Shown one piece after another: positions 12,809-29,727 of a stretch of 33,091 bases of DNA (the stretch's first letter is position 1; each line of letters starts with the position of its first letter). The DNA is from Bacteroidota bacterium (GTDB taxonomy: Bacteria; Bacteroidota; Bacteroidia; JABDFU01), in the NCBI GenBank assembly GCA_016183775.1, contig JACPDY010000056.1:1-33091 (forward strand), read 5' to 3'. A program made the translations under genes and the position numbers. Under the pieces are notes generated by a model, which was given only the letters and a program-made list of their open reading frames with translations, did not search any database and had not been told where the DNA came from.

Positions 12809-13711
12809 TTACGGCGCTGTTAAATTAACATTCACACTGCATCCGTTCTTATCTTTAATATTTATAGTGTAAGCTCCCGGACAAAGATGATTTTTGTACC
12901 TTCTGTCATATCCATCGGGCCACGAATAGGAGTAGGGGCTTGTGCCTCCGCTTGCGTTTACCATTGTCCATTCTTTACAGCCACAACTTATACAGGAGGC
13001 TGTGCCTTTGGAAAATAATGCCTTTAGTGGCGGAGGTGAAACTATTGATGCGGTAGAGATGGCTGAACATCCTTTAGAATCAGTAATTGTGACGGTGTAG
13101 ATTTGAGACGTGAGATTTGAAATTTGAGATGCTATACTGCCATTGCTCCAACTATATGCATAGCCCGGTGTGCCATTTCCGGGGTTGCCGGTTGCCGTTC
13201 CATTACTACTCCCGCTACAGGTAATATTGGTAACCGTTGTACTTGCAGTAACTGCAGGATTTACTGTTACGACAGCTGTTGAAGTTGAGCTGGTACCGTT
13301 TTTATCTTGTATTGTCACTGTGTAAGTAGTGGTTGTAGCCGGGCATGGATTGATATTCTGTGTTGAGCTGCCATTGCTCCATGAATAAGTGTATGGAGTA
13401 GTGCCACCTGTTCCTATAGAAGTTACAGTAGCGCATTCGCCCGGGCAAATTGGGGTGCCGGCTGCTGTTACAGTTGGGGCAGAACAATTAATTACAGTTA
13501 CTGTACTCGTTACAGTTGCTGTACAGCCCGCATTTGTAACAGTATGAGTAATGCTATAAGTACCTGCGCTTAAAAATGTATAAGACCAGTCAACTGTGGT
13601 GCCTGTTACCCCATAAATTTCTTTAATGGTCCAGGAGTGAGTTACGCCGGAACCAGAAGATCCTGTGTTTTTAAAATTTACAGTATTGTTTATGCACACG
13701 TTAGTTAAAGA
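12809..13711 (-). pseudogene. C-terminal part of giant surface protein 1 (frameshifted off)
   Basis: This frame encodes about 296 residues from a GTG at 13699: an Ig/PKD-like segment (NTVNFKNTGSSGSGVTHSW), a VTVNCS-type Ig repeat, a SprB-type repeat (TNITCSGSSNGTATG) and the C-terminus GCSVNVNLTAP. The paralogue at 17949-22031 carries the same domains in one uninterrupted frame. So this is almost certainly the displaced C-terminal part of the gene at 13701-16202, and the GTG is not a genuine start. No signal peptide is present. A pure reading-frame artefact of the assembly cannot be excluded. Confidence 0.75.
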
Positions 13712-16202
13712 TTTTAGTTTGACTACAGCCGTTACTTGAGTTTACTGTAAGCGTATAAGTACCGGCAATAAGTCCTCCAATGGAAGTGCCTGTCTGGCTG
13801 GTGCTCCATGTATAAGTATAGGGGGCGTTATTACTAATATACAAAGTTGCACTTCCTGTTGAAGAGCAGCTGTTATTGGTTGTTGCCAAGTTTGCTATCA
13901 AAGGATCGGGTTGATCAATGCCTACTATTTTAATGGCTTTACAACCATTTGCGTCAGTAACCGTAACTGTATAATTACCGGCAGTAAGATTATTTGCATT
14001 TGGACTTGTTCCGGCTCCACCTGACCAACTGTAAGTATAAGGTAACAAACCTCCGCTGACATTAACATTTGCATTCCCGGTATTGCCTGCATTGCAGGTT
14101 ACATTGGTTTGCGAACTTGTAACAGCAATATTGCCCGGTGCGGATATCATAACAGTATCCCGATAGTCCTTGCAGTTGTAATTCAATGTTATATTATGTA
14201 TGCCTGCACACAATCCTGTCGCGGTTTGGGTGGTTTGCCCGTTGCTCCATAAATAAGTTACGCCTGAAGTAAGGGGACTCCCACATTTTAAAAAAGTAGC
14301 TGTAGCCGTGCCATTGCAAGAGCAGGTGGCTTGAGTTGTAGCTTTTGTAATTGAGTCGGTGGCAGGACCACTTATTTCTATGGAAGTTACAAATGATGTT
14401 CCGCAAGCATATAGTGTTTTTCCTTTAACACCAATGGCTACATCATTGACCGTATCGAGGTTATTTGGAAGGGTAATAACATTTGTTTGTAGCAAAGAAG
14501 AATTGAATACTTTAATGGATGTTTGATAGCCTGCATATATTTTTTCGCATGCATCAACATCAATTCCTGCCCAACGTGTAGCAACATGTCCTGATAAAAC
14601 AACAGGAGTTTGAATTACATTGCTTGTAATTAAAGCCCCTGTTGCTTTGTTGAATTGCTTCAGCGTGTATCCATCCCACATATACACACCGTTATTGCCC
14701 GCAGCAATAACGTTCATGCCATTCGACGAAATACTGCCATAATAATTATGATTAAGTTCACCGAAAATATATCCGTTTGGCTGATTGTACGATGTAGGAC
14801 TAATAGCGGGACAGGGTAATTTAATTAAAGTATTCGTATTAAATGGGGATTGGCTGGAGTTAGCCATGTAGCAACTTGTTCCTGAGGGATCAATAGAAAC
14901 ACCAACCATATCATATCCCCCAAGAGTATTAATGGGGAGGTTCATCACATTTACAAGATTAAATTGAGTCAGATTAATATCTATTGTACCTGCCTGGTAA
15001 ATATCTTGTAAGCCACCCGCTCCAATAATTAATTGATTCGTACATTGGTTAAATGCTGCCCGCCAAAATTCACGCATAACACCAGGTTTGGCAGCGATTG
15101 AGTTGGATGCTATAAGTAATCCATTAGTTGAAATTTTTTGAACGATACCTAAACTGGGAGAAATACCGCCATCCCCAACAATAAATACATTCCCCGTTGC
15201 TCTGTCTACAGTTATTTCCCCATATATGATAAAAACAGGAGAAACTTGGTAAGTCCAAATAATTGAGCCTGAACTATTCAGTTTTACCAAACCATTTTGG
15301 GAGGCGGCATATACATTTCCGTTATAATCATAATCTACGTCCCATGGTCCTCTTTTTAAACCTGCCCCAGGGAAGATCGGAGTTGTTATCCATGGGTCTA
15401 TCACAAGAGTCTTGGTCTTGTCATACCCTTCTTCAAATAAAAAGGATTCTTCGTTATCGTTTAATTTGTATTTCGTTTGTATGTTTATTCCTTCCTCGCC
15501 TTCATAAAAACTATATGGTGTATGATCAATGAATTCACCTATTTCGCTCTGTATAGTCACATTTCCTCCGTCTTTTTTAATGTTTTTTGCACCTATGTAT
15601 TTCAACTTTACTTTTGAGGGATCTCCACCGGGGTGAACTATTATCGAATACTTTATTCCTTCTTTTCCGTCCGGGAAAATATATTCAATATCAATTCCAG
15701 GGTAAAGATTTCTATATATGATCTTTTTAAACAGATTGACCTGAACTGACGAAGTGAGACCGGTTGGATAAACATAGTAGTCGGATCGTTTTCCCAGAGC
15801 CTGAATAGTTACATTTGGGTTTGCGCCTTCCCATGTAAAAGCCAGGTAGTGTGTTTTGTGTTTTAGAAATGTTGCCGGTTCAAGCTCCTCTTTTTCTTCA
15901 TTTTCTTTCTTGCTTTCCGGGTATTCATCATAGCGATAAGTAAGTCCGTTTGCTGTGAAGAAGGCTTTTATTTGCCCAAGTTCCGCTCCGAACAACACCT
16001 TACCTTTGTTTGGTAAAACAACATCGAACTGCCCCTGATTCTCAATAAATATTTTTTGATCAAATGGATTTACATTCCATTTGACTTTGTACCCGTTTGA
16101 GGATGCATTTGTTGCCAAACCTGAAGCATGTGGGTTGTCTATTACCTGACACGATCCATGAGAAATAAACAGAGAGGCAATTAAAGCAAGTATATATTTC
16201 AT
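13701..16202 (-). CDS. Giant secreted repeat protein 1 (DUF7948 / propeller / SprB), truncated
   Basis: The 833-residue product starts at ATG 16202 (a TTG at 16208 would add two residues) and has a signal peptide, MKYILALIASLFISHGSCQ. Residues ~50-270 match the N-terminal DUF7948-like region of Bacteroidota SBBP proteins (FIENQGQF, then YPGIDIEY, HPGGDPSKVKLKY). Next comes a beta-propeller-like region (to about residue 605). Two or three SprB-like repeats follow (GGLLPYTYSW, AGNYTVTVTDANGC). The frame stops at TAA 13701 right after TKIFN. In the paralogue, TKTFN is followed by another 14 codons and then the NACIGSLVNF segment that corresponds to NVCINNTVNF in the neighbouring frame. The likely location is the cell surface or outside the cell. 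No type IX C-terminal signal is visible. Confidence 0.8.
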   Translation of the reverse strand: MKYILALIASLFISHGSCQVIDNPHASGLATNASSNGYKVKWNVNPFDQKIFIENQGQFDVVLPNKGKVLFGAELGQIKAFFTANGLTYRYDEYPESKKENEEKEELEPATFLKHKTHYLAFTWEGANPNVTIQALGKRSDYYVYPTGLTSSVQVNLFKKIIYRNLYPGIDIEYIFPDGKEGIKYSIIVHPGGDPSKVKLKYIGAKNIKKDGGNVTIQSEIGEFIDHTPYSFYEGEEGINIQTKYKLNDNEESFLFEEGYDKTKTLVIDPWITTPIFPGAGLKRGPWDVDYDYNGNVYAASQNGLVKLNSSGSIIWTYQVSPVFIIYGEITVDRATGNVFIVGDGGISPSLGIVQKISTNGLLIASNSIAAKPGVMREFWRAAFNQCTNQLIIGAGGLQDIYQAGTIDINLTQFNLVNVMNLPINTLGGYDMVGVSIDPSGTSCYMANSSQSPFNTNTLIKLPCPAISPTSYNQPNGYIFGELNHNYYGSISSNGMNVIAAGNNGVYMWDGYTLKQFNKATGALITSNVIQTPVVLSGHVATRWAGIDVDACEKIYAGYQTSIKVFNSSLLQTNVITLPNNLDTVNDVAIGVKGKTLYACGTSFVTSIEISGPATDSITKATTQATCSCNGTATATFLKCGSPLTSGVTYLWSNGQTTQTATGLCAGIHNITLNYNCKDYRDTVMISAPGNIAVTSSQTNVTCNAGNTGNANVNVSGGLLPYTYSWSGGAGTSPNANNLTAGNYTVTVTDANGCKAIKIVGIDQPDPLIANLATTNNSCSSTGSATLYISNNAPYTYTWSTSQTGTSIGGLIAGTYTLTVNSSNGCSQTKIFN

Positions 16203-16411
16203 CGTCAAATAATTTAAATAGAGCTATACTAAAATAACTTAAATAAAAGCTGATGTCAATTTAAAGTGTTTAATTTTTCAGTGTTTTGATTTATTAATTT
16301 ATTAATTAAAAATTTGACACAAAGCGACAAAAATAGCTATATTCAATGATTATTTTGTGCCAATCAGTAATTTATATGTTCTATATTTTATAGCTAATTT
16401 TCAGACTTTAG
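16203..16411. promoter_or_regulatory. Divergent promoter region of module 1
   Basis: The 209 bases between the giant gene (minus) and the helical-protein gene (plus) are very AT-rich and contain no gene. TGTCAA at 16254-16259 and TTGACA at 16314-16319 form a short inverted repeat. I could not fix a TAnnTTTG promoter box for either direction, so promoter activity is inferred from the divergent layout only. Confidence 0.4.
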
Positions 16412-17935
16412 ATGAAAGATTCTGACGACCTTTTTTTATTAATTCATGCGATGACAGGAGCCGAGAAAAGGTATTTCAAACTTTTTTCGGCGCTGTATGA
16501 CCGGGACAAGAATTATTTGAAATTGTTCGAACTCATTGCAAAGAATAAGGGTAGCTATAACGAAAAAGAGCTGATCAGTAAATTTAAAAAGGAAAAATGG
16601 GTAAAAAGCATATCAAATACAAAGTATGAACTTTTCAATGCTATTTTGAATTGCATGGAGGTGTATCATAAAAGGGATACAGTGGATGCGAGGTTGGGTT
16701 CATACATGAATCAGTTGAATCTGCTTCATGACAAAAGATTGTTCAGGGCTGCGAAGAAGATGATCGACAAGATCGAAAAGTTGGCTTTAAAGCACGAAAA
16801 GCATCATTATCTTCTTATGGCCAACTCTGTTAGAGTTATTATAATCACAAAGTTAATGAATGTTAAAGAGATCGATGAGTATGTTGACAATGGAGCTTAT
16901 GAAAAGGAAAAGTATTACCTGAAATGTCTTGAAAACAATTCGGAGTTTTTGAACATTAATTTAAAGATTTCCAAAGCCGCTGAACTATTTGTGAGAACTA
17001 ATGAGGCAAAAGAACTTCAGGAACTTTCAAATTCCGAGTTGTTAAAATCTCCTGATAGGGCGCTTACTTTTTATGCGCGGCGAAACTATTATTATATTAA
17101 TTATTTATGCAGGTCGAGACTCGGAAGGTTAGATGAAACGGCGTACTTGCAGCAGAAAGAGTGGATAGATTTTCTGGAAAGTGAAAAGGATATGCTTGTT
17201 TCAAGGTCGGGTATTTATTTGTCAGCGTTAATTCGATTTATAGGAACTGTAAATTGTACTAAGTTAAAGACTGAACTGGAGCCCATATTTATTAAAGCAA
17301 AAGAATTCTATCACAACCTTCCGGTTAAAATGAAAACGGACGATCTGAAGGCTGCATTTATAGGAGTTGCCGGCAATTATATGGAAGGACAGATCGCTTT
17401 GCACAAACCTCAAAAGGCGATAGAAGCGTGGGATAGTATAAGGCATCTCATTCCATATGAATCTCTTGGAGGAGAATCGAAAATGGTCACATCCGTGAAT
17501 CTCTCTTATGCTCACTTTCTCATGCAGGAATACCGTGTGGCAAATAGGTATCTGAATAACATAATAAATTATACTGAAGAAGCCAGGCCTGATATTCAGA
17601 GTTATGCCCGGATCTTTATACTATTTGTTAACTACGAAATGGGGAATTATGATTCTATAATATCGATATGCCAGTCGTCAAAACGTTATCTGCTTAAGAA
17701 CAAGCTTCTTGGTAAATATGAAAACAGATTAATCCGATTTTTTCAAAAGGATATTTTCAGGACTTCACAGATCGGGAAGTCAGGTGGATTGTTTGAGCAA
17801 TTGAAAAATGATCTTGCTAAATTGAAGGCAGATAGTAAAACTCCTGTTGCCCGAAGTTTTGATATTGTTTCATGGTTTGATAGTAAAATTGAAAAAAGAC
17901 TCTTTGTGGAAATTATGAAGGAAAGGGAAAAGTGA
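16412..17935 (+). CDS. Helical (TPR-like) protein of unrecognised family, module 1
   Basis: The 507-residue protein has no signal peptide or membrane segment and looks almost wholly alpha-helical, consistent with a TPR-like or superhelical fold. The N-terminal block DLFLLIHAMTGAEKRYFKLF and the C-terminal block FDIVSWFDSKIEKRLF are shared with the gene at 22247-23764; the middle is more divergent. This type of protein recurs in Bacteroidota genomes as an uncharacterised family. It is divergent from giant protein 1 and convergent with giant protein 2 (13 bp between stops). The position suggests a functional or regulatory link to the surface protein, but no catalytic or DNA-binding motif is visible. 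Confidence 0.8.
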   Translation: MKDSDDLFLLIHAMTGAEKRYFKLFSALYDRDKNYLKLFELIAKNKGSYNEKELISKFKKEKWVKSISNTKYELFNAILNCMEVYHKRDTVDARLGSYMNQLNLLHDKRLFRAAKKMIDKIEKLALKHEKHHYLLMANSVRVIIITKLMNVKEIDEYVDNGAYEKEKYYLKCLENNSEFLNINLKISKAAELFVRTNEAKELQELSNSELLKSPDRALTFYARRNYYYINYLCRSRLGRLDETAYLQQKEWIDFLESEKDMLVSRSGIYLSALIRFIGTVNCTKLKTELEPIFIKAKEFYHNLPVKMKTDDLKAAFIGVAGNYMEGQIALHKPQKAIEAWDSIRHLIPYESLGGESKMVTSVNLSYAHFLMQEYRVANRYLNNIINYTEEARPDIQSYARIFILFVNYEMGNYDSIISICQSSKRYLLKNKLLGKYENRLIRFFQKDIFRTSQIGKSGGLFEQLKNDLAKLKADSKTPVARSFDIVSWFDSKIEKRLFVEIMKEREK

Positions 17936-17948
17936 ATTAATCCCCACT

Positions 17949-20900
17949 TTAAGGAGCGGTCAGATTTACATTCACACTGCACCCATTTTTATCCTTTATA
18001 TTTATAGTGTATGTGCCCGGGCAAAGCTGATTCTTATATCTATTGATATACCCATCGGGCCAGGAGTAGGAGTAAGGATTTGTACCGCCCGCTGCATTCA
18101 GCATTATCCATTCTTTACAGCCACATCCGTTACAACCTGCAGTTCCTTTGGTAAATTGGCCGAGCAATGGTGGAGGTGAAATTACAGCAGATGTAGAAGT
18201 AGTTGTGCATCCTTTTGCGTCAGTAATAGTTATCGTATAATTGCCTGATGTAAGGCCGGTAATTGTTTGTGAAGTTTGTCCATTGTTCCAGGTGTATGTA
18301 AACGGAGAGGTACCCCCTGTGGGATTTGCAAGAACACTGCCATTCATACTGCCATTGCACGTTATGTTAGTGGATGTAGTCGTTACATTAATGGCAGGAT
18401 TAACAGTTACAATTGCGGTCGAGGTCGATGTATTGCCGCCTGAATCTTTGATGGTTACAGTATAAGTAGTGGTTGATGCCGGACAAGGGTTGATGTTTTG
18501 TGTTGTAGCGCCATTGCTCCATGTGTAGGTATACGGCGCCGTACCTCCAGTACCACTGGACGTTGCTGCTGCACAAAGTCCAGGACACACAGAACTGCCG
18601 GTGGCAGTTACTGTGGGTCCATTGCAGTTAATAACAGTTACAATATTCGTAACTTTATTGGTGCACCCGGCATTCGTAACTGTGTGATCTACGTTATATG
18701 AACCTGCAGTTAAAAATGTATAGGAGAAATTAGTAGTGGTTCCGCTTGTGTTCACAGGAGCACCAATATACCAGCTATGCGTTACCCCTGTACCACTCGA
18801 CCCCGTATTAGTAAAATTCACCAACGAGCCTATGCAGGCGTTTGATGATGTAAATGTTGCAGAAGCTGCACCCGTGCTTGTTATATTAAATGTTTTTGTA
18901 GCGGTACAACCATTGCTGAGATCGGTAACTGTAACTGTATACCCACCCGGAGCCAGGCCATTATGGCTATACCATGTACTATTGTTACTCCAGTTAAATT
19001 GATAATTCCAGGGAATTTGGCCGGCAGTACCTTGCGATGATGATTTGCCATTTACAGAATCAACATAAGCTTGTCCGCTTTGTGTACAGCTAATATTATA
19101 ACTATTTGTCCGCAGGGTTGGAGAACGGTTTACCGTTACTGATGTTGTAGTTGCTGCGTAATTTCCTGCAGCATCGGTAACCATTACAGTATAAACGGTT
19201 GTACCTATTGGCGGACAAACATTGATTGTTGAAGTGGTGGCTCCGGTATTCCAGCTGTATGTGTACGGACTTGTGCCGCTCGATCCTGCGGCAGTAATGT
19301 TTGTGCAGTTGCTTGCGGAACATAATGCCGCTCCCGTTGCTGTAGCGTTGATCGTGCAGGGGTTGACAATCACATAATTTGTTTTTGTTACCGAATCTTT
19401 TTTGCAGGGCGTTGTTACAACAAGCTTTACATTATAGTAACCGGGAGTAGAATAGCTGACCGAAGGATTTTGTGCGGTTGAAGTATTTGGCGTACCACCT
19501 GTAAAGGTCCATTTATATTTATAGCCACTTGTGTCGCAGGAATTACTTACGTTTGGTGTAAAATTAACAGGAGTGCCGGGGCAGGTTACAGCGTTCGCGG
19601 AAGGAGCGATTATTAAACTTTTGCCTTCACAAATATTAATACACAACTGAGCCACAAATGCGTTGGCGGTAGTTCCATCCTGAACAGCTCCGTAAGCTGT
19701 TTGATACGCGCCAGCAGTTACAGGATAACCTCCGGTGGTGTAGCCTGTAATATAAAGGAAACTGCCATTTACAGTAATTCCATTTGCACCTCCATTGTCC
19801 ATGTCATCTTCCCTGCTTCCCCCCATATAAGTTATGCAACGCTGTTGTCCATTAGGGTCATATTTGGCAATGAATTGATCCTCTCCTCCACCGGAAACAG
19901 GTTGATAGGCGCATGCGCTTATCTGATAATTTTTTGAATCGGTATCCTCCCATTCTCCGTAAACATAAATATTATTTGTGGCATCAGCAGCGAGAGCAAG
20001 AGCATATTCATCACTGCTTCCTCCAAGGTAAGTGGCCCACATCCTCGTTCCGCCGGAATTAAGTTTAACAATATTTCCCTCAAACAAACCTCCGCCATAA
20101 AGAGGCTGGTAAGCACCGGCAGATGAGCTGCCATCATTGGTAATTACATTGATGTTTCCTGAAATAGTATGGGCAAAGATCACATTGTTTAATCCATCTG
20201 TTACAATAGGTATTGGAAGATCGAACATGGTTTGATAGCTTCCACCATAATACGTAGCCCAAATGCGCGCGCCTGCCGGAGAGAACTTGAATAGAAAACC
20301 ATCACCACCGCCGCCGCCAAAGACTGGTTGGTAACATGCTCCTGAAACAGGAAAATTTGTTGACGCTGTTCCGCCTGTCAAATATATGTTCCCGGCAAGG
20401 TCACATGTTATACCGCTGCCTTTATCCTTGTTCGAGCCGCCTACATATGTACCCCAGATCACGGACCCATTAGGTGCAAACTTTACAGCGTATGCGTCGC
20501 ACATTGTAGTGCTTACTGTACCCGTACCATTTATAGCAGGCTGAAAAGCAGCTCCGTTGGATATCGCATTTCCGGAGTAAGTCGATCCTGATAAATAAAT
20601 ATTGTTTCCGTCAGTTGCTATGCCGCCGCCCATGTCATCCGAGCTGCCGCCATAATATGTTGCCCAAAGCCTTGTTCCCGCAGAGTTTAACGCGATCACA
20701 AACGCGTCACCTTTAAACCAGTTTTCACTGGCAACACCCCCGCCGCCATAAATGTTTTGGTGTACAACATTAGCTCCTGAAAATCCAATCGGAAAATTGG
20801 TTGATACTGTGTGCCCCGTTACAAAAATATTTCCGACGGCATCGCTGGCGATACAAATGCCTGTTTCATTGTCACTTCCGCCATAATAGGTGGCCCATAA

Positions 20901-22031
20901 ACCTGTGCCGGCGGCACTCATTTTAGCAATAAAAACATCGCCTTTTGTATTTAGAAATGAAGTGGGCCCGGCAAAAGATGTTTGAAAGCTGCCGGCGGTA
21001 TTCGGAAAATTAGTAGAAGTAGTATGGCCGCAAAAAACCAAATTGCCGGCGGGATCAGTATCTACAGCCGTGCCGCCATCGTATGTATTTCCGCCATAAT
21101 ACGATACCCAAGGGTCGATCACCAAAGGGAAGGAATGATTCCATTCTTCAAGCCGCATGCTTACTATTGTTCCGGTCAAAATATATGCTGCTTTTATATC
21201 AATAATTTCACCATTGACACGTTGATATACTTTTGGCATGGATTCAATAAGTTCACCTAAACTTGTTTTAATTAACAGTTTTCCATTCTCGACTTTTAGT
21301 TCTTCGGCACCCGAATAGTTTAATTTTATTTGTTCAGCATCACCGCCGGGGTTTACAATTATATCATACTTGAGACCTGCACTATTCTCTCCATAGAACG
21401 TTACATCTATATTGTTGTAAATATTTTTGGTTGTTACTTCGCCAAAGGAACGTACATTTAAAATGCCTTTGGTGCAATGTGGGTAGTAGTAATTATTATA
21501 TCCGCCAATTGGAGCTGAAGTATAGATATTGAGATTATGGTTTGCATCAACAAAATCAACATCCAGCCTGTGTATTTTCAGCAAAGATTTTTGCTCTAAC
21601 TCAAACCTTAATTTAATCAGGTCTTCTTTACTCTCTTTTTTTCCTGGCATTAACAAGTCGGCATGTTCCTTTTCTTCTATTTGTTCTTCAATTTCATGCA
21701 TTACTTTATTAATGTTGCTGTGCACATAACTTATTCCTGTTTTACGTAAATAAATATCCATACCGGAATTTTCTCCTTTATATAAAACATCAGGACGAAG
21801 GTCGCCTCTTATATCAACAATTTGTCCTTTGTTTTCGGTAAAACGGATGCTATTGCCGCGCATGCTTTGGGTAAATTGCGATAGATCTCCATTCCTCGTC
21901 GAATGTTTAGTGGTTTTTTCTGTATAAGAATTAACTATATCCTGCCCGTTGATACAAGAGGTATATAGCATGAACATTGTTCCTGTAAAATATAAGAACT
22001 GTTTTATATTCGATTTGTATTTATTCACCAT
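17949..22031 (-). CDS. Giant secreted repeat protein 2 (DUF7948 / SBBP / PKD / SprB), intact
   Basis: The 1360-residue protein has a signal peptide (to about residue 29, ending SCINGQ) and a DUF7948-like region at ~60-290 (FTENKGQIVD, PGGDAEQIKLNYSG). About eight SBBP propeller repeats follow at ~305-790, each with ATYYGGS plus DGxxxxxxTG-type elements. A PKD domain (~795-885) is followed by Ig-like and SprB repeats (TNITCNGSMNGSVLAN) and the C-terminus GCSVNVNLTAP. No membrane anchor or classical type IX sorting domain is visible, so how it is retained or secreted is open. It is likely a surface or extracellular adhesin-like protein. It is the full-length paralogue of the broken gene at 13701-16202. 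Confidence 0.87.
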   Translation of the reverse strand: MVNKYKSNIKQFLYFTGTMFMLYTSCINGQDIVNSYTEKTTKHSTRNGDLSQFTQSMRGNSIRFTENKGQIVDIRGDLRPDVLYKGENSGMDIYLRKTGISYVHSNINKVMHEIEEQIEEKEHADLLMPGKKESKEDLIKLRFELEQKSLLKIHRLDVDFVDANHNLNIYTSAPIGGYNNYYYPHCTKGILNVRSFGEVTTKNIYNNIDVTFYGENSAGLKYDIIVNPGGDAEQIKLNYSGAEELKVENGKLLIKTSLGELIESMPKVYQRVNGEIIDIKAAYILTGTIVSMRLEEWNHSFPLVIDPWVSYYGGNTYDGGTAVDTDPAGNLVFCGHTTSTNFPNTAGSFQTSFAGPTSFLNTKGDVFIAKMSAAGTGLWATYYGGSDNETGICIASDAVGNIFVTGHTVSTNFPIGFSGANVVHQNIYGGGGVASENWFKGDAFVIALNSAGTRLWATYYGGSSDDMGGGIATDGNNIYLSGSTYSGNAISNGAAFQPAINGTGTVSTTMCDAYAVKFAPNGSVIWGTYVGGSNKDKGSGITCDLAGNIYLTGGTASTNFPVSGACYQPVFGGGGGDGFLFKFSPAGARIWATYYGGSYQTMFDLPIPIVTDGLNNVIFAHTISGNINVITNDGSSSAGAYQPLYGGGLFEGNIVKLNSGGTRMWATYLGGSSDEYALALAADATNNIYVYGEWEDTDSKNYQISACAYQPVSGGGEDQFIAKYDPNGQQRCITYMGGSREDDMDNGGANGITVNGSFLYITGYTTGGYPVTAGAYQTAYGAVQDGTTANAFVAQLCINICEGKSLIIAPSANAVTCPGTPVNFTPNVSNSCDTSGYKYKWTFTGGTPNTSTAQNPSVSYSTPGYYNVKLVVTTPCKKDSVTKTNYVIVNPCTINATATGAALCSASNCTNITAAGSSGTSPYTYSWNTGATTSTINVCPPIGTTVYTVMVTDAAGNYAATTTSVTVNRSPTLRTNSYNISCTQSGQAYVDSVNGKSSSQGTAGQIPWNYQFNWSNNSTWYSHNGLAPGGYTVTVTDLSNGCTATKTFNITSTGAASATFTSSNACIGSLVNFTNTGSSGTGVTHSWYIGAPVNTSGTTTNFSYTFLTAGSYNVDHTVTNAGCTNKVTNIVTVINCNGPTVTATGSSVCPGLCAAATSSGTGGTAPYTYTWSNGATTQNINPCPASTTTYTVTIKDSGGNTSTSTAIVTVNPAINVTTTSTNITCNGSMNGSVLANPTGGTSPFTYTWNNGQTSQTITGLTSGNYTITITDAKGCTTTSTSAVISPPPLLGQFTKGTAGCNGCGCKEWIMLNAAGGTNPYSYSWPDGYINRYKNQLCPGTYTINIKDKNGCSVNVNLTAP

Positions 22032-22246
22032 AGCTGACTCTTTGTAAAACTACCCTGGCCGCATATCAGGCAAATTGCTAGGGTTAACGTACTTTGTTTG
22101 CCTAAAATAGAGAATCTATGCGGCATGTGCTAACTTATTATTTTATTTAATGACTTTTAACAGTATAGATATTAGTCATATTATTGCTTAATTTATTAAA
22201 TTTTATAATTATATTGCATTTTATAATGATTTTCTAACTGGTTAAC
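22032..22246. promoter_or_regulatory. Divergent promoter region of module 2 with nested inverted repeat
   Basis: No gene is present. On the giant-gene side, GCCGCATA (22058-22065) pairs with TATGCGGC (22117-22124), and inside it AGGCAAA (22068-22074) pairs with TTTGCCT (22097-22103). This could be a leader hairpin or an operator for the giant gene, whose ATG is at 22031. The half nearer the plus-strand gene is AT-rich without a clear promoter box. I see no matching structure in the module 1 intergenic region. Confidence 0.45.
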
Positions 22247-23764
22247 ATGAAACGAAATTCGGATAGTCTCTTTCATCTTATAAAGTCAATGAACAAGAGT
22301 GAAAAGAGATATTTTAAGCTTTATTCAGTTGCTTTCAAAAAGGACACCCAAATAATTAAGCTGTATGATATTATAGAAAAATTGATTGATTATACGAATG
22401 AAGGAAAGGTGTTTTTAGAGTTCAAATCAATTTGCAAAGGGAAAGATTTTTACGGGACTAAAAAGAAGCTCTATGAGCAACTGATGAGATCACTCAGGAT
22501 ATATCATTCCGGGATATCTGCGGAAAACCTGATCAATTCATATATCCATAATACGCAGTTACTATTACAAAAGAGATTGTTTGATGAGTGTGCCGTTGAA
22601 CTTGAGAAAGCAATTTTACTTGCTAAAGAAGGTGAATTTTTTCTTTTGTTACTTCAGACATTTGAGATAGAGGCAAGAATGAACCTTGGAAAGGAGTTGC
22701 CTGAGCAAGAGATTATTCAGAAAGAAGCCGCGAAAGAAGAGGCGATACTAAAATACCGGAACTATAGTAAATACTTATCTCTGGAATCTGCTTTTGCGGC
22801 AATGTATTATAAGCATTCCTTCATCAGGAACGAACAAACAGAATTTATTTATTCAGAAATAATAAGCGATCATTTTATAAAAGACAGCAGTATGGCTTTA
22901 TCCGCCAGGTCCAGGATGATAAGGAGCAATATTCTCTGCAGCTACTATTTCGCAAAATGCGATTTTGAGAACGGGTATTTACAGGCAAAAAATGTGATGC
23001 TTGAAATAGAATCACGGCCGGGTTTCGAGACCCTTTTTCAACGGAAATACGTTTCGGCGATCGGTAATGCAATTAAGTGTCTGCTCTATCTGAGGCAATA
23101 TGATAAAATGAAGATCATTATTGATAAGCTTAAGTTGGTGAAACCTGTTGACAAGGATATCGCTATCCGCAAATTTGAATTAAAAACAGTGGAGGTCTCG
23201 GCCCTTTTGGATGTTGGAGATTTTAAAGCGGCGCTTGCAATGATCCCTCAAATGGAGGAGGAGTTGAAAATCTATTTTGGAAAGGTAGAAATGAAGAACC
23301 ATGTCATTATTTTATTTCATGCCGCTCTCGCAAATTTTGGGTTGGAAAAATATTCGGAATCTATCAAATGGCTGAACAGGCTGCTGCATCTTCCCGGTGC
23401 TGAAAAAAACAGCGACATTTATTATTTTGCCCAGTTAATAAACCTTATTTTACATTATGAAAAGTCGAATATCGAACATGTTGAATATAAAATGAGGGGT
23501 ATCTATAAATATTTTTACACACGGCCGAGTTCACTTAAGTTTGAGTCATTGATACTTCAATTGATCAAAGAGGCTATATATGTTAATGATCAGAAGGAAC
23601 TTATTGCTTTATTTGTCAATTACAAAATAAAATTGGAGCATGTACTAAAGGATCCCTTCGAAAAAATTGCCATTGAGTATTTTGATATTATTTCCTGGTT
23701 GGAAAGTAAAATAACCGGAAAAAGTTTCGCGGAGGTCATAAAATTGAAATGGAAAAAGGTCTGA
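22247..23764 (+). CDS. Helical (TPR-like) protein of unrecognised family, module 2
   Basis: The 505-residue paralogue of the protein at 16412-17935 has N-terminal DSLFHLIKSMNKSEKRYFKL and C-terminal FDIISWLESKITGKSFAEVI. It is predominantly helical, charged and apparently cytoplasmic. The arrangement next to its giant partner repeats that of module 1: divergent, about 215 bp apart. The conserved ends with a variable centre suggest conserved contact sites and a pair-specific core, which is inference. No known function is recognised. Confidence 0.8.
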   Translation: MKRNSDSLFHLIKSMNKSEKRYFKLYSVAFKKDTQIIKLYDIIEKLIDYTNEGKVFLEFKSICKGKDFYGTKKKLYEQLMRSLRIYHSGISAENLINSYIHNTQLLLQKRLFDECAVELEKAILLAKEGEFFLLLLQTFEIEARMNLGKELPEQEIIQKEAAKEEAILKYRNYSKYLSLESAFAAMYYKHSFIRNEQTEFIYSEIISDHFIKDSSMALSARSRMIRSNILCSYYFAKCDFENGYLQAKNVMLEIESRPGFETLFQRKYVSAIGNAIKCLLYLRQYDKMKIIIDKLKLVKPVDKDIAIRKFELKTVEVSALLDVGDFKAALAMIPQMEEELKIYFGKVEMKNHVIILFHAALANFGLEKYSESIKWLNRLLHLPGAEKNSDIYYFAQLINLILHYEKSNIEHVEYKMRGIYKYFYTRPSSLKFESLILQLIKEAIYVNDQKELIALFVNYKIKLEHVLKDPFEKIAIEYFDIISWLESKITGKSFAEVIKLKWKKV

Positions 23765-23935
23765 TTATACCTGTTTCCCATCCGTAAGCTTTCAAAAGAT
23801 TGGAATTCTCTTTGACTTCGGGCCTGGTAAACGACTTTTCCGACCAGCTAAAACAAATTATTACCGCCAATCATTTAATTGAGCCATAATCCGGTCATTT
23901 CATTAATTTTATGCCTGTTTAAGAATGTGTTGTTT

Positions 23936-25387
23936 ATGGCCATAAAAATAGTTGCGTTTTTTTTATTGCTTTTTTTTGCACCCGCTGTTTTTTCACAAAA
24001 CACTGTTGCTCCTCAGGGGCCCTGGAGTTTACAACAGTGCATCGAATATGCGCTTAAAACTAATATTCAACTTAAGCAAACCCAGCTCAATGCGGAGTTG
24101 TCAAAAGTAAACCTTCTTCAAACCGAAGCAGGGGCTTTGCCCAGCGTGAATGGTATGATGCAGCATACTTACAACTACGGCCGTACCATCGATCAATACA
24201 CGAATACGTTTGCGAATAGCACAGTGCTTTCGCAGAATCTGTATGTAAGCGGAAGCCTTAATTTGTTCAATGGTTTGCAGCGTTATAATACGATCAGGCA
24301 GAACCAGTATAATTATCTCGCCAATAAATTTGATATTGAAAAGAACCGGAACGACATTTCATTGAATGTTGCGGGAGCTTACTTACAGATACTTTTTAAC
24401 CAGGAACTACTGGCAGTCGCGAACAACCAGCTTGAAATCACCATTAAACAATTAGACCGTACCCAGAAGTTATTTGATGCAGGCACTTTGGCCAAAGGCA
24501 GTTTGCTTGATATGCAGGCGCAGCAAGCCACTGATGAACTTACTCTTGCGAATGCCCGGAATCAACTCGATCTCGCATACCTCTCATTGATACAACTTTT
24601 AAACCTGGACTCGGTGAATGGATTTGAAATACAAAAACCCGAACTGGTTCTTCCGCTTGAAAATCTACTCATCAATTCTCCTTCCCAGATCTTTAACCAG
24701 GCTGTTAAAAATCTTCCTGAAGTAAAAAGCGCAGAACTTAAATTGCTTGGCGCCGAAAGGGGAGTGTCCGCAGCCAAAGGAGCCATAAGCCCACAGCTAA
24801 GTTTAAATGCGACCTATGGAACGGGTTATTCGGGATTAAGTAAATCAGTAACGTCGTATGGCATTTCTGGCGTTGATACTATTGGTTATACAAATGTTTT
24901 TGGTTCTACAACTACTTTTCAGCCTGTGTTCGCTCCTCATGTTGTTCCTGTATTTGAAAATAATTCTTTTTCAAAACAGTACAGGGATAATGTGAATCAA
25001 ACCTTGGGATTCCGTTTAACGGTTCCCTTGTTCAATGGTTTGCAAACACATTCATCAATAAGTAGGGCCAGGATATCGAAGATGAATGCTGATTTGGCGC
25101 TTGAACAAACCAAACAGCAGCTTCAGAAAAGTATACAGCAGGCGTATGCCGATGCCAATGCCGGTCTTAAAAAGTACATTGCATCAAAAAAGGCTGTTGA
25201 GGCAAATGAAGAATCGTTTAAATACAGTGAACAGAAATACAATGTTGGTGCGCTGAATGTGTTTGATTACAACCTGGCCAAAACAAAACTGGCCAAAGCG
25301 AAATCCGACCTTGTTCAGGCTAAATACGATTTTGTATTCAGATCAAAAGTGCTTGACTTTTACCAGGGCAAGCCCTTGACTTTATAA
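23936..25387 (+). CDS. TolC-family outer-membrane efflux protein
   Basis: The 483-residue protein starts at ATG 23936, with signal peptide MAIKIVAFFLLLFFAPAVFS. The upstream in-frame TTG at 23879 would place 19 non-hydrophobic-start residues before the signal and is less likely. GPWSLQQCIEYALKTNIQLK opens the first OEP repeat. The second repeat (KNLPEVKSAELKLLGAERG) and coiled-coil stretches (QTKQQLQKSIQQAYADA, YSEQKYNVGALNVFDY) are typical of TolC. It forms the outer-membrane exit duct of a tripartite exporter together with the adaptor encoded 10 nt downstream. The 23765-23935 stretch upstream contains no gene. Confidence 0.9.
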   Translation: MAIKIVAFFLLLFFAPAVFSQNTVAPQGPWSLQQCIEYALKTNIQLKQTQLNAELSKVNLLQTEAGALPSVNGMMQHTYNYGRTIDQYTNTFANSTVLSQNLYVSGSLNLFNGLQRYNTIRQNQYNYLANKFDIEKNRNDISLNVAGAYLQILFNQELLAVANNQLEITIKQLDRTQKLFDAGTLAKGSLLDMQAQQATDELTLANARNQLDLAYLSLIQLLNLDSVNGFEIQKPELVLPLENLLINSPSQIFNQAVKNLPEVKSAELKLLGAERGVSAAKGAISPQLSLNATYGTGYSGLSKSVTSYGISGVDTIGYTNVFGSTTTFQPVFAPHVVPVFENNSFSKQYRDNVNQTLGFRLTVPLFNGLQTHSSISRARISKMNADLALEQTKQQLQKSIQQAYADANAGLKKYIASKKAVEANEESFKYSEQKYNVGALNVFDYNLAKTKLAKAKSDLVQAKYDFVFRSKVLDFYQGKPLTL

Positions 25388-25397
25388 AACACTACAG

Positions 25398-26768
25398 ATG
25401 AAGAAACCTTGGGTACTTATTACAGGAGCGATCCTGCTCATTTCTATTCTGATCGGGGTAAAAAAATGCACATCTTCTGATAATACAGAGGTAGCCACTG
25501 AAAAGGCAGAGCGCAGAACCATTATTGAAACAGTTTCCGCCAATGGCAAGATACAGCCCGAAGTGGAAGTGAAGCTCAGCTCCGAAGTTTCGGGAGAGGT
25601 TGTGGAACTAAATGTGAAAGAAGGGGCGCATGTGAATAAAGGTGATCTGCTGGTTAAAATAAATCCTAATATTTATTTGTCGCAGCTGGAAGCGATTAAA
25701 GCGACCATGAATTCATCAAAAGCGAATTTGTCGAATGCGAGGGCGCGTTTGCTGCAGGTGCAATCGCAGTTCGCGAATACGGAAGCTGCCTATAACAGGA
25801 ATAAAAAATTGTTCGACCAGGGCGCTATTTCCGCATCTGATTTTGATATTTCAAAGGCTTCTTATGAAAGCGGAAAGGCCGATATAGAGGCTTCGAAACA
25901 AAGTGTAGCTGCCGCGGAGTTCAATGTTCAGAATGCGGAAGCCGCTTTGCAGGAATCGAGTGACAGGTTAGAAAAGACAAGCATATTCGCGCCGGTCAGT
26001 GGAACTGTTTCCAAGCTCAGTGTTGAAAAGGGTGAGCGTGTTGTAGGTACTTCACAAATGGCAGGAACCGAATTGATACGTATTGCGAATCTGAACGAAA
26101 TGGAAGCCAGTGTGGATGTAAACGAAAATGACATTACACGCGTGCATTTGAATGACACAGCATTGATACAGGTGGATGCCGTTTCGTATGAAAGAAAATT
26201 TAAGGGTATTGTTACTGAAATGGCCAACTCAGCTAATACTCTGGGCGTTTCGGCCGACCAGGTAACAAATTTTACAGTAAAGATCCGCGTGCTGCAGGAA
26301 TCATACAAGGACCTGATAAAAGGAGATGATATACGAACATCACCATTTCGTCCGGGTATGTCGGCCTCGGTAGACATACAAACTAAAACAATGAATAATG
26401 TTGTTGCCTTGCCCATTCAGGCTGTTACCACACGCAGCGATTCGGCGGTGAAGAAAGGAATGAATAATGATAGTGAGGACGAAAATGAAATTAAGATCGA
26501 GAACGAAAAGGAGAATAAAGTAAAAGAGAAGGAGGAGGGCCAGCCTAAAATACAGGAGTGTGTCTTTTTGTTGGAGGAGGGAAAAGCTAAACTGCAACTG
26601 GTGAAAACAGGTATACAGGATAATGACTACATTGAGATCGTTGAAGGAGTTAAAGAGGGCGATGAGGTAATTTCGGCGCCTTACTCGGTTGTTTCGAAAA
26701 CATTGAAGAATGGGACAAAAGTTACTGTAGTTGATAAATCCCAGCTTTTCAATGTTAAGAAGAAATAG
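25398..26768 (+). CDS. HlyD/MacA-type periplasmic adaptor of an efflux system
   Basis: The 456-residue membrane fusion protein has one N-terminal transmembrane segment (about residues 5-22). A biotinyl-lipoyl half-motif (VVELNVKEGAHVNKGDLLVKINP) follows, then a long coiled-coil hairpin (~90-190). The second lipoyl half (IFAPVSGTVSKLSVEKGERV) and beta-barrel domains come next. A 35-residue, highly charged Glu/Lys/Asn-rich insert (~355-390) lies in the membrane-proximal region. The overall shape resembles MacA. No inner-membrane ABC or RND transporter is encoded next to it, because tsaB follows at once, so its energy-coupling partner must lie elsewhere. Confidence 0.88.
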   Translation: MKKPWVLITGAILLISILIGVKKCTSSDNTEVATEKAERRTIIETVSANGKIQPEVEVKLSSEVSGEVVELNVKEGAHVNKGDLLVKINPNIYLSQLEAIKATMNSSKANLSNARARLLQVQSQFANTEAAYNRNKKLFDQGAISASDFDISKASYESGKADIEASKQSVAAAEFNVQNAEAALQESSDRLEKTSIFAPVSGTVSKLSVEKGERVVGTSQMAGTELIRIANLNEMEASVDVNENDITRVHLNDTALIQVDAVSYERKFKGIVTEMANSANTLGVSADQVTNFTVKIRVLQESYKDLIKGDDIRTSPFRPGMSASVDIQTKTMNNVVALPIQAVTTRSDSAVKKGMNNDSEDENEIKIENEKENKVKEKEEGQPKIQECVFLLEEGKAKLQLVKTGIQDNDYIEIVEGVKEGDEVISAPYSVVSKTLKNGTKVTVVDKSQLFNVKKK

Positions 26769-26770
26769 CG

Positions 26771-27502
26771 ATGGCATTGATACTGAATATTGAAACAGCT
26801 ACCACCGTTTGTTCTGTGGCGCTTGCAAAAGACGGTGAACTGCTTGCTCTGAAAGAAATCAACAACGGATACACCCACGCCGAAAATCTGACTGTTTTTA
26901 TTGAAGGACTTGTCAAAGAAGCTAACATAAAATTTAGTGATCTTGACGCCATTGCCATAAGTAAAGGGCCCGGTTCGTATACGGGTTTACGTATTGGGGT
27001 TTCGACTGCGAAGGGGTTGTGTTATGGGTTGGGGAAGGCGCTCATTGGTTTATCTACCCTCAAATGCCTCACATTTCTGGTTCAAAGTTCAAAGTTCAAA
27101 GTTCAAAGTCGAAATGAAAATATTTCCCTCGTCCCTCGTCCTTCGTCCCTCGTCCCTTTGCTTTGTCCCATGTTGGATGCAAGAAGGATGGAAGTATATT
27201 GTGCTTTGTATGATGAGAAATTAAACGAAATCGAACCCATACAAGCCAAAATAATTGATGAACACTCTTTTGAAGAACACTTGAAAAATAATGTAATTTA
27301 TTTTTTTGGCGATGGCGCTGCCAAATGCCGTGAAAAGCTCGGAACAAATGCTAACGCTGTTTTTATTGATAATGTATTTCCATCAGCTGCTGCTATGATC
27401 TCTTTTTCAGAGGCAGCCTTTAATACACAACAATTTGAAGATGTCGCTTATTTTGAACCGTACTACCTGAAAGACTTTGTGGCGGGGCCGAAGAAGGGTT
27501 AG
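26771..27502 (+). CDS. tsaB: TsaB, tRNA N6-threonylcarbamoyladenosine synthesis protein
   Basis: The 243-residue ASKHA-fold protein has LNIETATTVCSVAL at the N-terminus, the TsaB signature GPGSYTGLRIGVSTAKGL near residues 65-82, and later PMLDARRMEVY. TsaB is the partner of TsaD, TsaE and TsaC in making t6A37 on ANN-decoding tRNAs. It starts 2 nt after the adaptor stop codon, so it is probably cotranscribed with the efflux genes. Between LTFLV and CPMLDARR about 28 residues derive from two 7-nt tandem repeats (27080-27153). The frame stays open, but this segment is foreign to the family and may form a surface loop. Confidence 0.88.
   Translation: MALILNIETATTVCSVALAKDGELLALKEINNGYTHAENLTVFIEGLVKEANIKFSDLDAIAISKGPGSYTGLRIGVSTAKGLCYGLGKALIGLSTLKCLTFLVQSSKFKVQSRNENISLVPRPSSLVPLLCPMLDARRMEVYCALYDEKLNEIEPIQAKIIDEHSFEEHLKNNVIYFFGDGAAKCREKLGTNANAVFIDNVFPSAAAMISFSEAAFNTQQFEDVAYFEPYYLKDFVAGPKKG
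27080..27160 (+). repeat. Two adjacent 7-nt tandem repeats inside tsaB
   Basis: GTTCAAA is repeated four times at 27080-27107. After an 18-nt spacer, CCCTCGT is repeated at 27126-27153 (four units, one variant CCTTCGT), with a partial unit to 27160. Each array is 28 nt. Both look like low-complexity minisatellites that normally lie between genes, yet here they are within a coding frame. Confidence 0.85.
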
Positions 27503-28378: not shown

Positions 28379-28789
28379 CTAAAACAATGACAATTGACTG
28401 TCATCATCTGATTGAATTTGAGGTTTGGGCTGAGAATGTTGATCAGGCTTTGCCTCTATATATATTTCCTGCCGTTCTTCCGATTTAACCATTACAGTTT
28501 CAATATCTGCAATAGCTAATTCAATTTCATTGGGCGCATCGGGAATATTATTTTCTGCTTTGTAAATACGAGCATCTACTACTTGCCTCCACCAAATTTC
28601 AAGTAACTCAATTGAGGATGTTAGTTTCTTTTTATGAGCAATTGCTGATTGCATGTTAATTACATCCAGTTTTTCAGAAAGCCTTTTGTCAGGCATTGTT
28701 GCTAATATAGCAACATTGGCATCCCAATTTTCAAGAGCTTTTTGTATGCGTGGATCTCGTACTGAGCCTGTCGAAGGATCGTTACTCAC
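28379..28789 (-). CDS. Small acidic protein with C-terminal beta-clamp-binding motif
   Basis: The 136-residue protein starts at a GTG that overlaps the end of the restriction gene (GTGAGTAA). The body is helical (IQKALENWDANVAILATMP, then ELLEIWWRQVVDARIYKAE). An acidic, disordered-looking tail ends exactly in DDDSQLSLF. QL(S/D)LF is the consensus pentapeptide that binds the hydrophobic pocket of the DnaN sliding clamp, usually at a free C-terminus or in a flexible tail. I do not recognise the family. The first nine residues (NDPSTGSVRD) are encoded by a repeat-like sequence, so the original start may differ. Its stop TAG is directly followed in frame by the HEPN-like coding region. Confidence 0.7.
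   Translation of the reverse strand: MSNDPSTGSVRDPRIQKALENWDANVAILATMPDKRLSEKLDVINMQSAIAHKKKLTSSIELLEIWWRQVVDARIYKAENNIPDAPNEIELAIADIETVMVKSEERQEIYIEAKPDQHSQPKPQIQSDDDSQLSLF
28752..28784. repeat. Short repeat-like sequence at the restriction gene / small gene junction
   Basis: The core ACTGAGCCTGTCGAAGG matches my memory of a short sequence dispersed in many bacterial genomes, including Bacteroidota. It lies between GATC tetramers and overlaps the stop codon of the upstream gene and the first codons of the next one. Only this copy occurs in the window, so its repetitive nature is recalled and not shown here. Confidence 0.4.
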
Positions 28790-29333
28790 TTGACCCTCCT
28801 TCTACAATTTTAATTTCTTCATGGGTTAATTCATACAGCTCATAAACTAATTGATTTATTTTTTCTTCGCTGTATTCAATACGTTGTCTTATTTGGTCTG
28901 TTTTGGTTTGAAGTTTCTCGGTTTTTAATTCTTCATTTAATTTTAAAAGTAAATCAACATGCTTTATAACTTCAACTCTTGTAGTTGCTTTACCTTCCTG
29001 TATTGGCAAGTCCCTCAAATCTTGCAAAAGCATTTTTGGAAATGTTCCTTTGAATGCGTTAGGAGAAGTATTTAGATGATAGAAAGAAATTAATTTTGAA
29101 TTAATAAGTCCTAAGAGGTATTTAGGTTCTATTCTATTTCCAACAAGCCTTATCCCATCAACTGAATTGGAAAAAACGTAATCGCCATCAATGAAAGTAG
29201 CCTGAATTATTCCTTTTGCAGTAACTTCCCTTACAATAATTCTTTCACCATTAAACCATTCGGGCTTGCGCGGTGCAGCTAACCACCTTCCATAATCAAT
29301 ATACCCGCCTTTCCAGTTTAAAGAGTATCTCAA
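28782..29333 (-). CDS. Type IIG restriction-methylation enzyme, C-terminal specificity fragment
   Basis: The 183-residue frame from a TTG at 29333 is continuous upstream with codons giving HRPLLGGSEILRYSLNWKGG. That pattern is typical of the TaqI-like C-terminal target recognition domain of Eco57I-class enzymes (PLLxGxxIxRY, then GRWLAAPRKPEWF). The ending INQLVYELYELTHEEIKIVE is the usual C-terminus of such enzymes. It is therefore the end of the gene beginning at 31740, displaced by a frameshift near 29390. As it stands it could be made as a separate specificity polypeptide only if an internal start is used. Confidence 0.75.
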   Translation of the reverse strand: MRYSLNWKGGYIDYGRWLAAPRKPEWFNGERIIVREVTAKGIIQATFIDGDYVFSNSVDGIRLVGNRIEPKYLLGLINSKLISFYHLNTSPNAFKGTFPKMLLQDLRDLPIQEGKATTRVEVIKHVDLLLKLNEELKTEKLQTKTDQIRQRIEYSEEKINQLVYELYELTHEEIKIVEGGSSE

Positions 29334-29385
29334 AATTTCAGATCCTCCTAATAAAGGCCGGTGTGTAGATTTCGTCTTCTTTTCG

Positions 29386-29727
29386 CTATGGAAATTCGTT
29401 TCCTTTTTGTGGTGCTATGCCTTTCTCTTTTTCGTAAACTTTTACACCCCAAACTACTTCAGCAAAGTCGGACAACTGAGTTTTACATTGCCTAACAGTT
29501 TCAATAACTGACAAAGATTTTGGATTAGTATATATTGGGAAAAGAAAAGTTTGATTGTTTGTGATTGTACTTAATTTAAGAGTATAACTTTCTTTCAATT
29601 CAGTGTCCCATCTGTTAACTGAAAAAGAATCCGGTGGATTACCTGTTGAAAATAATATAATACAAGTTTCCACTGTTGCATCCTTAAATGTTTGTTTCGG
29701 TGTAATTACAATTTCATCTATACAAAC
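29386..29727 (-). CDS. Type IIG restriction-methylation enzyme, middle fragment
   Basis: This continues the frame of 29728-31740 directly after its TAG. The codons read VCIDEIVITPKQTFKDATVE and so on, which fits the region that follows motif VIII in Eco57I-type methyltransferases. A GTG at 29673 gives a 95-residue product. The frame ends in TAG at 29386. Removing one base from the TTTCC stretch near 29390 (minus strand) would instead read GNEFHSEKKTK and join the specificity fragment. Confidence 0.7.
   Translation of the reverse strand, partial: VCIDEIVITPKQTFKDATVETCIILFSTGNPPDSFSVNRWDTELKESYTLKLSTITNNQTFLFPIYTNPKSLSVIETVRQCKTQLSDFAEVVWGVKVYEKEKGIAPQKGNEFP

Follow-up and report, generated by a model that had tools for sequence, protein, structure and literature searches.

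Relatives of the BT2802/RusR family as putative local regulators of divergently encoded giant surface proteins in a Bacteroidota genome

Why should a gene for a giant surface repeat protein lie, twice in one stretch of DNA, back to back with a gene for a helical protein of about 505 residues? We address this question for a window of 33,091 nucleotides (contig JACPDY010000056.1 of assembly GCA_016183775.1, Bacteroidota bacterium), the whole stretch of DNA analyzed here, in which a sequence-only reading had reported the same helical/giant pair at two places. Both pairs were confirmed, with gaps of about 203 and 215 bp between the divergent genes.

16412..17935, plus strand: helical protein A, 507 aa, putative BT2802/RusR-superfamily regulator, without signal peptide
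16209..16411, no strand: putative intergenic control region A, divergent, 203 bp, from measurement of the gap
13701..16208, minus strand: giant A, N-terminal part, 835 aa, with signal peptide, DUF7948 and SprB repeats; in-frame stop at its end
12809..13699, minus strand: giant A, C-terminal part in a shifted frame, 296 aa, with PKD/SprB repeats and a CxxCGCKEW...NVNLTAP end module
22247..23764, plus strand: helical protein B, 505 aa, putative BT2802/RusR-superfamily regulator, modeled as an all-helical TPR-like solenoid
22032..22246, no strand: putative intergenic control region B, divergent, 215 bp, from measurement of the gap
17949..22031, minus strand: giant B, 1360 aa, with signal peptide, DUF7948, SBBP propeller, PKD and SprB repeats and a CxxCGCKEW end module

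The similarities first noticed between the two pairs were also recovered. Helical proteins A and B are homologs from end to end (25% identity, E = 5e-25) and have the EKRYFKL and FDI-SW--SKI blocks in common; the C termini of the giants are 67% identical across 295 aa and their DUF7948 domains 28% identical. The description of both giants as propeller proteins holds for giant B, in which Pfam SBBP repeats are found, but not for giant A, in which none were detected and which a stop or frameshift at about position 13700 divides into two frames (13701-16208 and 12809-13699); at this point, either the gene carries a lesion or the assembly is in error. Immediately downstream of helical B, positions 23879-27502 encode an outer-membrane efflux protein and an HlyD-type fusion protein without an adjoining inner-membrane pump gene, followed by a TsaD/TsaB-like gene. 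Farther along, at 28782-31740, lies a type II restriction-modification-like gene (HSDR_N, Eco57I methylase, TaqI_C), apparently in separate ORFs and perhaps broken.

Profile searches place the helical proteins in a named superfamily. Helical B matches NCBIfam NF058569, "BT2802 family ribose utilization protein", at E = 3.1e-47 (161.7 bits, profile positions 1-501 of 502), and helical A matches it at E = 1.5e-33 (116.6 bits, best stretch 1-154). We take BT2802 to be rusR, as reported by Glowacki et al. 2020. The curated cutoff of the profile, 550 bits, is passed in just 2 of 396 genomes of the class; helicals A and B fall far below it and are thus superfamily relatives, neither RusR itself nor filed members of its family. 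RusR is reported to be a regulator of ribose scavenging in B. thetaiotaomicron that acts on BT2803-2809 (PMC12596196). The above-cutoff copy in the two genomes that carry one (G295 and G103) is a single gene divergent from a ribokinase operon, and helicals A and B have DUF7948 giants for neighbors in place of this ribose-utilization linkage. At scores of 162 and 117 against 550 bits, the function of RusR is carried over a long distance. The helical family, which had been called uncharacterized, thus belongs to the BT2802/RusR superfamily, although we found only one studied member of it.

Structure prediction for helical B alone, based on 71 sequences, gave an entirely helical, TPR-like solenoid (pLDDT 94.5), as had been suggested for checking in the sequence-only reading. 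Among bacterial folds, Rap TPR regulators match it best, at nonsignificant E values of 0.003 to 0.02 and TM scores to the target of about 0.55 to 0.60, and scattered weak TPR Pfam matches occur in up to 10 of 71 members. In Pfam, helicals A and B have no match and no recognized DNA-binding domain, and a search of solved structures returned no sequence relatives. Across the paralogs, conservation peaks at the two ends (about 85 residues at the N terminus and about 25 at the C terminus), with a variable stretch between them. The N-terminal domain is basic (mean net charge, +6.6) and is modeled as helical (pLDDT 90), with no fold match at E ≤ 0.001. A winged-helix identity of this domain gained no significant support; its Fur/Mur matches were partial (probability ~0.33). 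The helical proteins have no hydrophobic N-terminal segment, whereas the giants do.

The two pairs of the window turned out to be a small part of a much larger set. In this genome (G000, 4.5 Mb), helical genes occupy 88 merged places and DUF7948 giants about 137. Neighbor statistics were gathered by simple ORF calling on 1.16 Mb of fetched stretches, in which a profile search found 90 helical ORFs, of which 74 are full length (at least 468 aa) and 16 are fragments of lesser length; with 74 full-length helicals and ~137 giants, the original count of two was far too low. About 16 helical genes are broken or cut by a contig end and giant A is interrupted, suggesting rapid birth and death. Of the 75 helicals that reach 380 aa and have a called neighbor upstream, 74 are divergent from that neighbor, against 73 of 301 other genes (Fisher P ~ 1e-35), and the gap is usually 100 to 350 bp. 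This near-uniform layout supports the proposal, made from the window alone, that the two products work or are regulated together, as a functional or regulatory pair.

The divergent neighbor is a DUF7948 giant in 55 cases. Most others are further secreted proteins, many with T9SS-type tails, and a few are cytosolic: an HMGL-type synthase, two GNATs and an HTH protein. The HMGL/isopropylmalate-synthase-like partner is retained beside its helical gene in G005. The two GNAT-like acyltransferases (G000:C2:61762-62382 and G000:C93:37017-37631), paralogs of ~205 aa that each lie divergent from a helical gene, are apparently cytosolic partners of the regulator family. As for the giants, 86 of 121 ORFs stand in same-strand runs, often tight operons, that are headed by a divergent helical gene; 27 lie in runs meeting the end of a contig or stretch, and 8 are headed otherwise. 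Tandem giants are separated by a median of ~37 bp and each has its own signal peptide; these peptides and the operon-like gaps rule out a model in which the tandem copies are silent donor cassettes. The 67 gaps searched contain no shared operator and no Bacteroidota -33/-7 promoter clearly above dinucleotide shuffles, an outcome to be anticipated with a separate site for every regulator and equally with no site at all.

The giants also share an unusual end. Both giants of the window close with a CxxCGCK-W module of about 60 to 70 aa (in the giant C termini at 17949-18460 and 12809-13320), which has an invariant motif and more conserved cysteines, typically ends in NVNLTAP, and is common to ~110 genes in the fetched stretches. 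When 33 CxxCGCKEW ends were compared with the type A sorting tail TIGR04183, 17 matched, at E ≤ 0.1 only (best, 5e-4), and the member shown in full scored 19.6, short of the cutoff of 23. The type B tail TIGR04131 had zero matches among the 33 ends, though SprB repeats are present. With no type B match and weak similarity to type A, it may represent a novel T9SS module for sorting or anchoring. The type A tail itself occurs above cutoff in at least 150 proteins of G000, a large secreted repertoire for 4.5 Mb.

Matches to the helical superfamily extend to 174 of 396 genomes of the class (E ≤ 1e-25). Among fully scored genomes, G000 has 86 matches, less complete members of its genus have 44, 14, 7, 3 and 0, and three genomes of other families have 36, 36 and 21. 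When divergent pairing was counted in these families, all 19 helicals sampled in G310 were divergent and all 19 partners carried TIGR04183; in G162 and G049, 16 of 20 were divergent, with about half of the partners recognizable T9SS cargo and others including LytR-like response regulators and a FabH-like enzyme. The pairing is therefore not limited to a single place or a single strain. Across families, the divergent placement of helical gene and target stays constant and the kind of target changes: a giant specifically is the usual partner in G000, and other T9SS cargo usually takes its place in other families.

A scan of genome contigs yielded a sole match, the orthologue of a sibling species (MAG JAEUTS01). 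Comparison of sibling species covered 20 orthologous helicals (62 to 92% identity). Their partner is also orthologous in 16 of 20 comparisons and is replaced by a different giant (40 to 45%) in the other 4. In these four cases the DNA is orthologous from the helical start into the gap, and similarity ends near the start of the giant: at about -17, at -4 to -7, and at +198 (helical A of the window) relative to that start, and, in the fourth, near a giant start whose call differs between the species. Helical A is 84% identical to its sibling orthologue L194 (dN/dS, 0.11), which faces a different giant (45% amino acid identity); gap A is 78% identical to the sibling region, and giant A is replaced beyond its first ~198 bp. 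Helical B is 89% identical to its orthologue (L166/L202; dN/dS, 0.13), giant B has an 86% identical sibling orthologue behind the orthologous helical gene, and gap B is 61% identical to its counterpart in G004, with an 18-bp exact block. A further apparent swap (L175/C31) was rejected, as the partner matches and its giant is broken in G000. Divergent gaps are 58 to 88% identical in 14 of 14 sibling pairs, whereas the 150 bp past the stop of the helical gene mostly cannot be aligned, and the helical genes are under purifying selection (median dN/dS, 0.12).

Divergence, a conserved gap and swapped giants are together consistent with a local regulator whose site of action is the gap. We therefore consider it probable that the helicals are cytoplasmic, RusR-like regulators, each acting on a promoter in the gap and switching the divergent secreted-protein operon, in which the bodies of the surface proteins are exchangeable. 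The computed support for this reading consists of RusR homology, a TPR-like fold, divergent pairing, operon-like runs, purifying selection, and promoters that are kept while giants swap; from it we infer transcriptional regulation, DNA contact, ligand sensing and the part played by the surface proteins. In such a mechanism, each helical protein would act on a promoter in the ~100- to 350-bp gap between its gene and the divergent one and would switch an operon encoding a single secreted surface protein or several, mostly DUF7948/SprB giants in this genus and cargo with T9SS tails elsewhere. The variable TPR-like middle may serve as receptor for the inducing signal, and contacts to DNA, RNA polymerase or another helical copy may be made by the conserved ends. 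The conserved unit would then be the regulator plus its promoter, with the surface-protein body behind it exchanged by recombination.

Regulation without DNA binding by the helical protein itself seems to us rather unlikely. It would act either after transcription (by RNA binding or translation control at the 5' leader) or as a sigma co-factor or anti-factor, which would accommodate the lack of a recognizable DNA-binding domain, the basic N-terminal domain and the conserved intergenic region; Rap-like TPR proteins, moreover, work by protein contact. However, near-universal divergence is typical of regulators that act on promoters, and in two of the replacements similarity ends shortly before the start codon of the giant, which places the target within the gap.

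It is unlikely that the helical protein serves, through protein-protein contact, as a dedicated cytoplasmic chaperone or secretion pilot of the divergent giant. TPR solenoids commonly bind proteins, the partners are overwhelmingly secreted and the genes are tightly linked, but giants are abundant where helicals are few (30 giant versus 7 helical matches in G002 and 16 versus 3 in G001), and a single helical gene often heads several giants of unlike sequence. The partner is swapped while helical gene and promoter stay, and helicals and giants show no co-phylogeny. Cytosolic enzymes are among the partners, the gene opposite RusR proper is a ribokinase, and a chaperone gene is usually found within its client's operon rather than divergent from it. 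Of the regulatory, chaperone and secretion-related roles raised from the sequence of the window, regulation is thus favored.

The histories of the two partners are separate. In 47 intact pairs, distances between the helicals show no correlation with those between the DUF7948 domains (Mantel r = 0.04, P ~ 0.25), with control values of 0.61 for the N and C halves of the helicals and 0.82 for the halves of DUF7948. Uncorrelated trees in the face of strong signal within each protein indicate that old partners were not duplicated together, contrary to what had been supposed, and were assembled or exchanged independently; the exceptions are a few recent co-duplicates (C48_59457, C79_92096 and C79_98259; helicals 50 to 57%, DUF7948 64 to 71%). 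Mere segmental duplication of a linked pair without functional connection, which would suit those few recent paralogs, is very unlikely given the Mantel result, the recurrence of the divergent layout in unrelated families whose partners are of other kinds, the conserved gap and the purifying selection on the helical coding sequence. The giants are themselves mosaic, with uncorrelated distances in DUF7948 and the C-terminal module (r = -0.02). Widespread gene conversion among them was rejected, as just 6 long segments reach at least 88% identity, a number to which contig ends may hide additions.

The regulator reading offers a likely function for a large Bacteroidia protein family and a proposal for the individual control of T9SS surface cargo. 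Under this reading every surface coat gene would have a private switch; if this is true, ~75 private regulators in a 4.5-Mb genome, with the surface protein exchanged behind them, would amount to a new way of diversifying the surface. A bolder extension, possible but doubtful at present, is a Gram-negative surface-variation system built on TPR receptors, in which tens of fixed regulator-promoter "sockets" would respond to signals of their own, possibly peptides, and giants exchanged by recombination would form separately switched coats.

In the papers searched, we found nothing on DUF7948, no description of the helical-giant pairing and no regulator family specific to T9SS cargo, in keeping with the initial view that no described system accounts for the pair. 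The closest known system is RusR/BT2802 of Bacteroides thetaiotaomicron, which the helicals resemble in full-length homology, in size (~500 aa), in being cytoplasmic and in standing divergent from the presumed target operon. RusR, however, is a single copy facing ribose genes in the two above-cutoff genomes, whereas the helicals are ~75 diverged paralogs (~25% identical) that face giants or T9SS cargo and score below the cutoff. With the Rap/RRNPP TPR peptide receptors of Bacillota they share the predicted TPR-like solenoid (TM ~0.55 to 0.60), but with no significant E value, no recognizable HTH and no sequence relation. The giants resemble SprB/RemA gliding adhesins and other T9SS cargo in being long SprB/PKD/SBBP repeat proteins with signal peptides, and most differ in carrying the CxxCGCKEW end module, which stays under the type A cutoff in the member shown in full and has no type B match. 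Local regulators of polysaccharide utilization loci (PULs), namely HTCS, SusR and the ECF/anti-sigma pairs of SusCD systems, are dedicated one to each surface system, adjacent to it, and present as many paralogs per genome. The helicals likewise adjoin a surface system in many copies, but they belong to an unrelated family, and their target is giant adhesin-like or T9SS cargo, not SusCD and glycan enzymes. A dedicated regulator beside a surface system is thus of a known kind, as PUL regulators illustrate; new with respect to the papers searched are the helical family in this role, its coupling to T9SS cargo and giants, its scale, and the swapping of surface proteins while regulator and promoter are conserved as a unit.
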